A stretch of DNA of 59,421 nucleotides from an uncultured Flavobacteriales bacterium (lineage in GTDB: Bacteria; Bacteroidota; Bacteroidia; Flavobacteriales_D; Parvicellaceae), in the NCBI GenBank assembly GCA_913042175.1, contig CAJWIX010000004.1:1-59421 (forward strand), given 5' to 3'. Below the pieces are notes generated by a model. That model made no database searches and was not told the DNA's origin. It saw only the letters and a program-made list of their open reading frames with translations. The stretch's first letter is position 1, and every line of letters starts with the position of its first letter. Position numbers and translations under genes: made by a program. Below, piece after piece: positions 40,067 to 44,736 of the stretch.

Positions 40067-41422
40067 TTAAATGGCTTCAGCAGACTTTTTAACGAAATCT
40101 TCATGAGAAATTTCCTTATCAGTGATTTTTAAAGTGTTTTTTAAATACTCCATCACTTTACGATCATAAATCATATCATTCAATTTTCTGGCTTCTTCTT
40201 GATTAGAAAGTACATTTTGTGCCGCTTTTTTCAATTCTTCTTCACCTGGAATCATCATACCATACTGCGCATATTGATTTCCTATTAGCTCCATCGCAAA
40301 GTTCAACAACTCATTGCCATCTACTTTAATATTTTGATCTTTAATGATGTTATTTTCTATTAACTGCCACTTTAAACCATCCGCATATTTATCATAATCA
40401 CTCTCAATTTGTTCTTTGGTAGCTTCTTTATTGGAACTTAAAATCCATTTCTTTAAAAATTCATCTGGAAGTTTAAGCTTTAACTTTTTGATGATTGTTT
40501 TGGTAACCTCAGTTTTGAAAATTCGATCAGTATCTCCAACAAACATTTTACTAAGATCATTAATAATCTTCTGTTTAAACTCTTCTTCTGTCTTTACTTC
40601 ACCAGCTCCATAAATTTTATCAAACAGCGCTACATCAACATTTGCAGGCTGAAGTGATTTCACTTCATTTACTGTTAGTAAAACATTTCTGTCGTATAAT
40701 TTAGCCCTGTCTTTGTCAATTCCCAACATAGATGCCATGTCAGCCTCTCCTCTACTAATTAATTTAGGATCTATTACCAATTCATCTTTAGGTTTAAGAC
40801 CTATTAGTTTTTTCTTCGTTTTCTTATCATCAACAAACTCAATAGACACCGTTGAACTATGATTAAAACCTTCTGGAATAACTTCACCTTTATCATTCAA
40901 TTCTTTGAAGTTAGCTAAAATCATATCACTATCAGAAGCAACATCAACACCAACTAATTTACCATAACGTTTAGCAAAATCATTGATTTGTTTATTGACT
41001 AAATTATCATCAATCTTAGGCTGATAACGAGTAAACTTATATTTACCAGGAAGATCTAAATCAAAATCTGGAGCAATGCCTAGTTCATAGGCAAACTCAA
41101 AATCACCAGGATTGTTCCAATCAATTTCCTTTTTTTCATCATCTATTGGAAGTGGATTTCCCAGTATATTTAGCTTGTTCTCCGTAATATGATCATAAAT
41201 TGATTTATTAAGGATTTTGTCAATTTCTTCAGCCAATATCGATGGGCCATATTTCTTTTTTACAATGCTAGCCGGGACATGTCCCTTTCTAAAGCCAGGC
41301 ATTTGAATTTGTTTTCTGTAATTTTTTAATGACTTTTCATAGGGAGAAGCATAATCTTCATTTGAAATCTTCACCGTTAAAACTGCATTTAATGCATCTC
41401 TGTTCTTAACACTTACGTCCAT
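40067..41422 (-). CDS. tig: Trigger factor
   Basis: The 451-residue chaperone has an N-terminal ribosome-binding domain with GFRKGHVP, a short PPIase-like region that is reduced as in other Bacteroidota, and a helical C-terminal domain. The frame is open up to 41527, but that part reads through tRNA-Leu and its terminator; the ATG at 41422 (MDVSVKNRDALNAVL) is the real start. It heads tig-clpP-clpX on the minus strand. Confidence 0.94.
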   Translation of the reverse strand: MDVSVKNRDALNAVLTVKISNEDYASPYEKSLKNYRKQIQMPGFRKGHVPASIVKKKYGPSILAEEIDKILNKSIYDHITENKLNILGNPLPIDDEKKEIDWNNPGDFEFAYELGIAPDFDLDLPGKYKFTRYQPKIDDNLVNKQINDFAKRYGKLVGVDVASDSDMILANFKELNDKGEVIPEGFNHSSTVSIEFVDDKKTKKKLIGLKPKDELVIDPKLISRGEADMASMLGIDKDRAKLYDRNVLLTVNEVKSLQPANVDVALFDKIYGAGEVKTEEEFKQKIINDLSKMFVGDTDRIFKTEVTKTIIKKLKLKLPDEFLKKWILSSNKEATKEQIESDYDKYADGLKWQLIENNIIKDQNIKVDGNELLNFAMELIGNQYAQYGMMIPGEEELKKAAQNVLSNQEEARKLNDMIYDRKVMEYLKNTLKITDKEISHEDFVKKSAEAI

Positions 41423-41448
41423 TTTATTTTGCTTTGTTTTTATAATGT

Positions 41449-41476
41449 AAAAAGGCATAAACAAACTGCTTATGCC
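41449..41476 (-). terminator. Rho-independent terminator of tRNA-Leu
   Basis: On the minus strand GGCATAA, a 9-base loop and TTATGCC form a 7-bp stem (arms 41454-41460 and 41470-41476), followed by TTTTT (41449-41453). It lies ten bases past the tRNA 3' end and 27 bases before the tig ATG, so it would separate or attenuate tRNA and tig transcription. Confidence 0.65.
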
Positions 41477-41485
41477 ATTCTTACT

Positions 41486-41570
41486 TGGTGCGGGTAGAGG
41501 GAGTCGAACCCCCATGCCTCGCGGCACTAGATCCTAAGTCTAGCGTGTCTACCAATTCCACCATACCCGC
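41486..41570 (-). tRNA. tRNA-Leu (anticodon UAG)
   Basis: The minus strand gives an 85-base class II tRNA with a 7-bp acceptor stem GCGGGTA/TACCCGC, discriminator A and an encoded CCA end (41486-41488). The anticodon stem CTAGA/TCTAG closes the loop CTTAGGA with anticodon TAG; a variable arm TGCCGCGAGGCA and a T loop TTCGACT follow. It reads CUN leucine codons. Confidence 0.96.
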
Positions 41571-41675: not shown

Positions 41676-42569
41676 ATGCTAACTATTGATCTTATTGAAA
41701 TGGGATTACCAAAAGCTCACCACTACTTATTGGGGGCTGTTGGACCAAGACCGATATGTTTTGCCAGCACGATGGATGAAAATGGCACACCCAATCTTGC
41801 GCCTTTTTCTTTTTTTAATGTTTTTAGCTCTAATCCCCCCGTTGCGGTGTTTTCTCCCTCAAGAAGTGGCAGGACTGGAGCCCATAAAGACACTTACAAT
41901 AACGTCAAAAAAGTTGATGAAGTAGTTATTAATTTAGTGGATTACTCCATGGTTGAACAAATGTCTTTAGCCAGTTCTCCATATGCTCCAGAAGTGGATG
42001 AGTTCATTAAAAGTGGACTAACTCCAATTCCTTCAGAAACCATAAAACCTTATAGAGTGAAAGAATCTCCAGTACAATTAGAGTGTAAAGTGATAGAAGT
42101 AAAAGAATTAGGTGAAAATGGGGGTGCAGGAAACCTTATCATTTGCAAAATTTTGAAAATGCATGTTGCTGAACATATATTAGATGACAAACAAATGATA
42201 GATCAAGAAAAAATTGATTTGGTTGCAAGAATGGGCGGAGATTGGTACTGTAGAACAGATAAAAACTCCATGTTTGAAATTAAAAAACCCATTACCACTA
42301 AGGGAATTGGATTTGATCAAATGCCTCAAGAAGTTTTGGACAGCCCTATTTTAACTGGAAATGATTTGGGTAAATTAGGTGGTATAGAATCTTTACCAGA
42401 TGAAACAGCCGTAAATGATTTTAAATTGGTTGAATTAAGTGATCTATTTATAGCATTGGAAGATGACGCTAAATCACTTGAAATAGAACTGCACAAAAAA
42501 GCCAAAACATTTTTGAATGATAATAACTTGGATGCCGCTTGGAAAACCTTACTTTCGTTTAATAATTAA
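41676..42569 (+). CDS. Flavin reductase-like (FMN-binding split barrel) protein
   Basis: The 297-residue protein has the flavin-reductase-like split barrel at about 15-200 (LLGAVGPRPICFASTMDENG, NLAPFSFFNVFSSNPP, VVINLV), which binds FMN and may reduce it with NAD(P)H. The C-terminal 90 residues form an acidic helical extension conserved with similar Bacteroidota proteins. Its electron acceptor is unknown. It precedes the DUF3127 gene by five bases and likely shares its mRNA. Confidence 0.85.
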   Translation: MLTIDLIEMGLPKAHHYLLGAVGPRPICFASTMDENGTPNLAPFSFFNVFSSNPPVAVFSPSRSGRTGAHKDTYNNVKKVDEVVINLVDYSMVEQMSLASSPYAPEVDEFIKSGLTPIPSETIKPYRVKESPVQLECKVIEVKELGENGGAGNLIICKILKMHVAEHILDDKQMIDQEKIDLVARMGGDWYCRTDKNSMFEIKKPITTKGIGFDQMPQEVLDSPILTGNDLGKLGGIESLPDETAVNDFKLVELSDLFIALEDDAKSLEIELHKKAKTFLNDNNLDAAWKTLLSFNN

Positions 42570-42574
42570 TAAAG

Positions 42575-42916
42575 ATGGAACTGAAAATTAATGGAAGAGT
42601 AAAACTAATTATGGATCTACAATCATGGGATTCTGGTTTTACCAAAAGAGAATTTGTAATCACTACTAATGAGCAATATCCTCAAGATGTCAAATTGGAA
42701 TGTATTAAAGATAAAACCAATTTATTAGAAGGCTTAGCCGAAGGAGATGAAGTGGAGGTTTCATTCAATATAAGAGGTAACGAATACAACGGAAGGTATT
42801 ATGTAAATCTCCAAGCATGGAAGTTACAAAAGCAAGATGATGGGATGAATCAAGAAGCTCCACCTGCTCCAGATTTTGAACCTGTTGGAGATGATGATGA
42901 CGATTTGCCATTCTAA
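42575..42916 (+). CDS. DUF3127 OB-fold protein with SSB-like C-terminal tip
   Basis: The 113-residue protein is a DUF3127 member, a small beta-barrel found mainly in Bacteroidota (MELKINGRVKLI, FTKREFVITT, GDEVEVSFNIRG, YYVNLQAWKL). The last 30 residues are disordered and acidic and end DDDDDLPF. That ending is almost identical to the SSB tip (DDDIPF in E. coli), through which SSB docks its partner proteins. It may therefore bind single-stranded nucleic acid and recruit SSB-binding enzymes, or compete with SSB. Function is not established. Confidence 0.85.
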   Translation: MELKINGRVKLIMDLQSWDSGFTKREFVITTNEQYPQDVKLECIKDKTNLLEGLAEGDEVEVSFNIRGNEYNGRYYVNLQAWKLQKQDDGMNQEAPPAPDFEPVGDDDDDLPF

Positions 42917-42929
42917 CTAAATTCTACAG

Positions 42930-44321
42930 ATGACCCTATTTGACCGATACATCAAAGGGGTACGTTTCTTACTCCCTACTCCGTTCACCATAGCAATAGC
43001 GTTAACGCTGTTTACCATGGTATTTGCCTTTTGTTGGCCATGGGAAAATACTACCCAAAACATTGATGGTTATGGAAGGAAACTTTCTTTAATCCTAGAA
43101 TATTGGAATGATGGGCTTTGGAATATAAATGGTCTTGCCTTTGCTATTCAAATGATGCTGATGCTTTTACTAGGACACATCCTTGCATTAAGTCCTGTTG
43201 TTGAAAAAATCATCTTAAGACTTTTACCCATTTGTAGTTCAAATGCCAAGGGGGCTGCGTTTGTCACAATATTCACATTGATGGTAAGTTGGTTTAACTG
43301 GGGACTTGGATTAGTTTTTGGCGCTATTTTTTGTAAAAAATTATTAGAATATGCGCATGATCAAAAAATACCAATCAATGTAGGTTTAATTGGTGCTGCA
43401 GGATATTGCGGCTTAATGATTTGGCATGGTGGTATTTCAGGTTCTTCCCTAATTAAAATTGCTGAACCTGGTCATTTAGCTTCACTTACAAGTTCTAACT
43501 TACAAGAACAAGTCCCTAATCTTATTGATTTCAAAAGCACAGTTTTTTCTAGTATGAACTTATCTGTTACACTTTTACTTCTTTTTGCACTGCCTTTGAC
43601 TGCTTATTTTTTAGGAAAAAAAGTAAAAACTAAAATTCCTGACAATTACATTAAATCACCACAACAAATCAACGCTACTAATTTGATTGGTGCAGAAAAA
43701 TTAGACCATTCAATTTTAGCGGGAAAAATAATTGGTAGTGCCATCATTTGTTTTTGTGTATTCTTAGCTCTACAACATCCCAACACTTTATCATTTCAAT
43801 TTATAACACCAAATTTTTTGAATTTAAGCTTGCTTGGCTTGGCTTTATTAAGTCATGGCAGCTTCATGAATTTTTTGGCAGCATCACAAAAAGCCATTGG
43901 AGGAACCGTAGGTATACTTCTCCAATTTCCCCTGTATTTTGGAATTATGGGGATTTTTCAATCAACGGGTATAATTCAAGACTTATCTCATTATTTTCAA
44001 AGTATTTCTACTGAACTAACTTATCCTATTTATACCTTTTTAAGTGCCGGATTGGTCAACTTTTTCGTTCCAAGTGGTGGCGGACAATGGTATGTTCAAG
44101 GCCCATTGGTTATTCAGTCTGCTTTGGAAATGGGCATCCCTTTAAATAAAAGTATTATGGCATTAGCTTATGGAGATCAACTCACTAATATGATGCAACC
44201 ATTTTGGGCACTCCCACTATTGGGCATAACAGGTTTAAAAGCCAAAGATATTCTACCATTTACTCTTGTACTTATGATGGTAGGTATGGTGATTTTTCTA
44301 GGTGGATTAATCCTTTTTTAA
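42930..44321 (+). CDS. AtoE-type short-chain fatty acid transporter
   Basis: The 463-residue inner-membrane protein has about 12 hydrophobic segments and the AtoE family blocks: LPTPFTIAIALT, WFNWGLGLVFGAI, MIWHGGISGSSLI, NFFVPSGGGQWYVQGP, GDQLTNMMQPFWALPLLGI. AtoE proteins take up short-chain fatty acids such as acetoacetate or butyrate. It lies 13 bases after the DUF3127 gene on the same strand, which may be co-transcription without a shared role. Confidence 0.92.
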   Translation: MTLFDRYIKGVRFLLPTPFTIAIALTLFTMVFAFCWPWENTTQNIDGYGRKLSLILEYWNDGLWNINGLAFAIQMMLMLLLGHILALSPVVEKIILRLLPICSSNAKGAAFVTIFTLMVSWFNWGLGLVFGAIFCKKLLEYAHDQKIPINVGLIGAAGYCGLMIWHGGISGSSLIKIAEPGHLASLTSSNLQEQVPNLIDFKSTVFSSMNLSVTLLLLFALPLTAYFLGKKVKTKIPDNYIKSPQQINATNLIGAEKLDHSILAGKIIGSAIICFCVFLALQHPNTLSFQFITPNFLNLSLLGLALLSHGSFMNFLAASQKAIGGTVGILLQFPLYFGIMGIFQSTGIIQDLSHYFQSISTELTYPIYTFLSAGLVNFFVPSGGGQWYVQGPLVIQSALEMGIPLNKSIMALAYGDQLTNMMQPFWALPLLGITGLKAKDILPFTLVLMMVGMVIFLGGLILF

Positions 44322-44442: not shown

Positions 44443-44736
44443 ATGAAAAAACTAATCACAACAACAATTATTTTTTGTACCCTTTTAGCATGCAACAAAA
44501 ATGAATGTGTTAATAGTGAAAAAGCAAGAATAGAAAACAACCAGATAGATGGTTGTGGCTATACCATTAGATTAAATAATGGTGATCAAATCGAACCCGT
44601 TAATTTAGCTGATTTCGATATTCAACCAAAACACAATAAAAAAGTGTGGGTCAGTTACCATATAAATCAAAATTTATCTGCCAGTATCTGTATGGTAGGA
44701 GATATTGTTGTGATTGATTGTATTAGTGAACGATAG
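44443..44736 (+). CDS. Small hypothetical lipoprotein
   Basis: The 97-residue protein has a short lipoprotein signal (TTTIIFCTLLAC, Cys16) and about 80 mature residues with three or four Cys and a DGCGYTIRLNNGDQIEPVNL stretch that suggests a small beta-barrel or disulfide-bonded fold. Similar small lipoproteins occur in Bacteroidota without known function. It has its own 121-base upstream spacer and converges on the glycosyltransferase gene. Confidence 0.65.
   Translation: MKKLITTTIIFCTLLACNKNECVNSEKARIENNQIDGCGYTIRLNNGDQIEPVNLADFDIQPKHNKKVWVSYHINQNLSASICMVGDIVVIDCISER

Follow-up and report, generated by a model that had tools for sequence, protein, structure and literature searches.

DUF3127 proteins with a predicted SSB-type OB fold and an SSB-like C-terminal tip: candidate second single-stranded DNA-binding proteins of Bacteroidota

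Results

The DUF3127 gene and its neighbourhood

The window, i.e. the whole stretch of DNA analysed here, comprises 59,421 nucleotides from an uncultured Flavobacteriales bacterium. It contains a gene (Table 1) whose product belongs to the Pfam family DUF3127 (PF11325), with a match at residues 5-84 above the curated cut-off (E 4.5e-27, 94.5 bits against 27). Among the PHROGs profiles, phrog_4932 ('single strand DNA binding protein') covers residues 4-113 of 113 (E 6.6e-30), and two more SSB-named PHROGs align with the C-terminal half of the protein (E 2.2e-6 and 8.5e-5). PF00436, the family of the classical SSBs, was absent from the Pfam matches of the protein in searches up to E 10, and the gene is not one of the two PF00436 matches that a profile search found in its genome. 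The closest named records are Flavobacteriales MAGs, marine-type Crocinitomicaceae among them, and one of these (L034) encodes a protein identical over all 113 residues.

Table 1 Features of the DUF3127 locus (positions in the window)
Feature	Position	Strand	Remarks
Trigger factor, longest ORF	40067-41527	-	GTG start inside the tRNA-Leu gene
tRNA-Leu gene	41486-41570	-	
Flavin reductase-like upstream neighbour	41676-42569	+	PF01613, E 2.9e-17; 5 nt between its stop codon and the start of DUF3127
DUF3127 ORF	42575-42916	+	ATG to TAA, 113 aa, C-terminus ...PVGDDDDDLPF
OB-fold domain, residues 1-88	42575-42838	+	Pfam PF11325 at residues 5-84; AlphaFold2 model; SSB/PriB structure matches
Disordered Pro/acidic linker, residues 89-105	42839-42889	+	Low pLDDT; length variable among relatives
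SSB-Ct-like tip DDDDDLPF, residues 106-113	42890-42913	+	P112 and F113 invariant (47-row alignment)
Short-chain fatty acid transporter, downstream neighbour	42930-44321	+	PF02667, E 4.3e-90
Lipoprotein-like ORF	44443-44736	+	97 aa, no Pfam match

When 72 flanked loci were compared, 18 had a homologue of the short-chain fatty acid transporter, which adjoins DUF3127 in close relatives. Other cellular neighbours are trigger factor, ClpP and, in 17 of 20 loci of a family treated below as f6, a protein which we take to be Aat-like. A function based on operon structure was considered and rejected, since the cellular neighbours are metabolic genes, include no replication genes and vary between clades. 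The five phage records inspected carry the RefSeq label single strand DNA binding protein for the DUF3127 product, and the gene lies close to an Erf annealing protein, to RecT and a metal-dependent hydrolase, or to NinG, or (in two records) upstream of both a primase/helicase and NinG. The phage genes are thus located in replication/recombination modules. Within the window, the longest trigger factor frame begins inside a tRNA gene, so that its true start lies further in.

Conservation of the C-terminal tip

The tails of 82 relatives were compared, comprising the best 30 loci of the 222 matching Bacteroidota genomes and all 52 loci of a second set. All 82 have PF as their last two residues, and the seven positions preceding the last three hold two or more acidic residues. 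LPF is the most frequent end (56), followed by SPF (17), VPF (4), MPF (2), IPF (2) and APF (1). None of 429 other ORFs of at least 100 aa from L034-L085 and the window ends in PF; these control ORFs were called mechanically and not all are genes. According to this comparison, the DDDDDLPF tip is not due to chance. A preliminary description of the locus had named conservation of the tail in DUF3127 relatives as one test of its SSB-like reading, and the tail is indeed conserved. The proposed comparison with the SSB of the same genome likewise revealed the same type of end (DDDDDLPF versus DETDDLPF).

Nine further, mostly more distant copies were inspected. Five of them are tipped, and the other four, all from family f14, have an acidic stretch without PF. 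A match was present in 99 phage records; five of these copies were read, and each has a DLPF end. Thus the tip is present in Bacteroidota, Verrucomicrobiota and phage copies. All 17 SPF ends belong to verrucomicrobial (Opitutales/Pelagicoccus-type) loci, whereas the classical SSBs from three such genomes (L103, L105, L113) end in EEDVPF; the DUF3127 and the classical SSB tips are therefore not copies of each other.

Tipped DUF3127 genes also occur on contigs labelled Kiritimatiellia, Akkermansiaceae, Opitutaceae and Candidatus Saccharibacteria (L056, L058, L063, L085). The Opitutales group looks native, and the Candidatus Saccharibacteria contig may be mis-binned or of phage origin. In genome G183 the DUF3127 match (C1:1633180-1633428) lies within an open frame of 282 aa, possibly a fusion. 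Among the classical SSBs, the main SSB ORF of genome G396 (L097, 1489-1945) stops after GDIEF and codons for DDLPF follow downstream in another frame, reflecting either a sequencing error or a real frameshift.

Predicted fold and relation to PF00436

An AlphaFold2 monomer model built on a 47-row alignment reached a mean pLDDT of 83, with block values of 88-94 up to residue 80. The predicted elements are strands 3-12, 23-31 and 38-44, a helix at 45-51, and strands 59-71 and 74-86. In the tail, pLDDT was 53-63 in residues 91-113 and below 50 at 90-95. The layout given in the preliminary description, an OB domain followed by a disordered acidic/Pro linker and an acidic-L-P-F end, is backed by this model together with the conservation of the tip.

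On the basis of the model, the DUF3127 domain is predicted to be an SSB-type OB fold. The 50 PDB matches listed by Foldseek are all SSB or PriB chains (best E 1.6e-6). Similarly, the 50 entries listed by VIA-align 2 are all SSB, PriB or mitochondrial SSB (Z 11.0-12.4, rmsd 2.0-3.4, 80-92 residues). Yeast mitochondrial SSB Rim1 (Z 12.4, rmsd 2.3, 88 residues), Salinibacter SSB (Z 12.2, rmsd 2.0, 87 residues) and PriB (1woc, Z 12.1, rmsd 2.8, 88 residues; 3klw, Z 12.0) are tied in their scores. In a comparison with viral predicted structures, DUF3127 proteins ranked first among the named matches, ahead of single-stranded DNA-binding proteins. In the alignment K24, R25, F22, F27, F64, R67, Y71 and W82 of the OB domain are invariant or nearly so.

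A proof of homology to PF00436 by sequence was attempted and failed: hhalign with trimmed OB profiles gave P 0.079 and a probability of 0.7% (reversed-profile control 0.79). Pairwise BLAST of DUF3127 against PF00436 proteins yielded nothing significant, and PDB sequence searches found no relative, the sole match (E 4.3) being to the tail. Remote homology is independently supported by seven f6 genomes without PF00436, in which five of the six weak PF00436 matches obtained at E≤10 fall on a DUF3127 gene. Homology to PF00436 is thus suggested by the fold and by these matches, sequence similarity alone being weak.

Classical SSBs in the genome of the window

The genome, 2.36 Mb in 165 contigs and 85% complete, encodes one DUF3127 protein and carries two SSB genes of the PF00436 family. 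One of the latter encodes the classical SSB ending in DETDDLPF and follows a gene which is presumably MutY-like. The other product (L002) is tail-less and ends in EILFLKK. Because a tipped classical SSB and a tail-less paralog are also present, DUF3127 would be an additional SSB in this genome, in line with the accessory SSB suggested by the preliminary description.

A Bacteroidota family with tip-less or missing classical SSB

Wider surveys revealed genomes with a tail-less protein as their sole PF00436 member. The Bacteroidota family to which they belong (f6), which judged by its SSB sequence may be Weeksellaceae (Chryseobacterium and kin), was then surveyed in 100 genomes. DUF3127 is present in 98 of them, including all 93 with a completeness of 90% or more and no more than 5% contamination. 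PF00436 copies number none in 7, exactly one in 44 and two or more in 49 genomes. The seven assemblies without PF00436 range from 3 to 330 contigs, and their completeness is 93-99% in six cases and 79% in one (G407). Tip counts for the classical SSB refer to the 44 single-copy genomes, the 49 with two or more copies being set aside. All 44 tails were read and 40 lack the PF tip. The four tipped exceptions are G403 (a divergent copy), G428 (TPF), G430 (56% complete) and G483 (81% complete). Restricted to the 40 single-copy genomes at least 90% complete, 38 are without tip.

The DUF3127 proteins of f6 end in LPF at 71 of 72 distinct loci (71 genomes; L209 and L223 are the same locus and were counted once). 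The exception (L224, G415 C22) is a second copy of 90 aa that stops right after the OB domain, while the main copy of G415 is tipped. Tail-less DUF3127 thereby parallels the tail-less SSB paralog. G430, which has a tipped PF00436 protein and no DUF3127 match, is possibly a mirror case.

A tree of 110 PF00436 proteins, with few columns for many rows (tool warning) and a long branch for L002, placed 38 tip-less f6 SSBs in one clade of 42 (support 100/100). The rest of this clade comprises the window's paralog L002, the tipped protein of G430 and, from family f7, two tail-less proteins. A separate clade of main-type f6 SSBs (26 rows, 100/99) contains 16 tipped and 10 tip-less proteins, and seven of these ten form one clade, all from genus g186. 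The placement implies that most tip-less f6 genomes have lost the main SSB and kept the tail-less paralog, and that g186 has retained the main SSB with its tip eroded. In G281 another gene follows the MutY-like gene, at the place that ssb occupies in the window's genome.

Family f14 shows the reverse of f6: the DUF3127 tip is missing in four of four copies and the SSBs end in DLPF in four of four. Across the phylum, DUF3127 was found in 222 of 395 sampled genomes and PF00436 in 392, the missing ones being G024, G136 and G220. Two of these three have DUF3127; G136 is not among the DUF3127 matches listed, and some isolated absences of PF00436 may therefore be assembly gaps. Family f6 differs from such isolated cases by a cluster of PF00436 absences together with consistent tip loss. 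A Fisher test comparing absence in 7/100 with 3/387 genomes gave p 0.0009; being post hoc and ignoring relatedness, this value is descriptive only.

Discussion

We consider it highly probable that DUF3127 is an SSB-type ssDNA-binding protein with a docking tip, which acts beside classical SSBs in the window's bacterium and probably has a housekeeping role in f6. Judged by the fold and by the phage gene context, its SSB/PriB-like OB domain would coat ssDNA, and the flexible acidic tail would present the conserved SSB-Ct tip for docking of repair and replication partners. In E. coli the SSB tip docks RecQ, PriA, RecO or RecJ. In the window's bacterium DUF3127 would share the work with the tipped classical SSB and the tail-less paralog, in a putative division of labour. 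In f6 genomes with one or no classical SSB it would mostly be the only tip-bearing SSB found.

Since the classical SSB of f6 is often absent or tip-less, the pattern suggests more than an accessory role there, and DUF3127 has probably replaced the classical SSB in this family. With some reserve, we lean towards DUF3127 being the main replicative SSB of f6, which took over ssDNA coating and the SSB-Ct hub while the tip of the classical SSB eroded (the seven-genome g186 clade), the tail-less paralog alone was left (most genera) or the classical SSB was lost (7/100). Bacteria could then swap one of their best-conserved essential replication proteins for a distant OB-fold relative; bacterial SSB is generally regarded as both universal and essential. 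Several observations count against the SSB reading of DUF3127: most f6 genomes retain a tail-less PF00436 protein, which could itself coat the ssDNA; G430 has a tipped PF00436 protein and no DUF3127 match; the tip is missing in f14; the neighbours in cells are metabolic; and sequence similarity to PF00436 is weak.

Other readings were weighed against the same data. PriB equals SSB in the fold comparison (1woc and 3klw), and DUF3127 might be a PriB-like accessory, a small OB protein aiding PriA at restarting forks and not a general coat of ssDNA. We regard this as improbable, since PriB lacks the SSB C-terminal region according to an excerpt of PMC8509808, whereas DUF3127 keeps the tip; the SSB-less f6 genomes would moreover have no SSB at all, and the phage copies sit in Erf/RecT/NinG modules. 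Even less credit is given to a decoy or regulator whose tail mimics SSB-Ct and titrates SSB partners without coating ssDNA. That the window's genome also encodes a classical SSB with a tip would suit such a protein, but the conserved basic and aromatic OB residues listed above fit a nucleic-acid surface, and many f6 genomes have no tipped SSB left as competitor. Nothing observed requires the regulator of SSB traffic offered as an alternative in the preliminary description.

The tip might also be a lineage quirk of a protein with an unrelated job, e.g. RNA binding or metabolism together with its neighbours, as the metabolic neighbours in cells and the acidic ends without PF in all four f14 copies would allow. 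We think this the least probable reading, because the tip is kept in Bacteroidota, Verrucomicrobiota and phage copies and the neighbours change between clades.

If DUF3127 acts as a second tip-bearing SSB, many genes of 'unknown function' would be reassigned, given its presence in more than half of the sampled Bacteroidota genomes. It would also explain how some genomes cope with a tip-less SSB or none, and would offer a test in nature of whether another OB protein can take on the docking tip. The annotation of phage copies as SSB (PHROGs, RefSeq) is already known. Our search of the open-access literature found DUF3127 named in one paper, on a Pantoea phage whose SSB gives it as a second domain hit (PMC8004638), and PF11325 in none. 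Neither a cellular SSB role of DUF3127 nor SSB replacement in Bacteroidota was reported in the literature so searched.

DUF3127 shares with the classical bacterial SSB (PF00436; E. coli SSB, B. subtilis SsbA) an OB fold whose third and fourth strands are separated by a helix, a flexible linker and an acidic-L/I/V-P-F tip. Classical SSBs bind ssDNA and assemble into dimers or tetramers; the DUF3127 model is that of a monomer. It differs by the lack of a PF00436 match at usual thresholds, by its shorter length (113 aa; OB domain about 88 aa) and by invariant motifs of its own (KREFV, NIRGNEY, NLQAW). It is SSB-like by fold and tip and, by the profile test, not a member of PF00436. The phage SSBs of phrog_4932 resemble it in the full-length profile match and the DLPF end; unlike these, the window's gene lies on the chromosome of a cell that also has classical SSBs, and the PHROG name is an annotation only. 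With PriB it has the SSB-like OB fold in common (Z up to 12.1) but, unlike PriB, it carries an SSB-type tail and tip. In the laboratory construct PriB-SSBc, an added SSB tail increased ssDNA affinity and PriA stimulation, as stated in the above-mentioned excerpt (PMC8509808), and thus an architecture of PriB-like OB domain and SSB tail can work. DUF3127 pairs the same two parts and would be a natural analogue of this engineered fusion.
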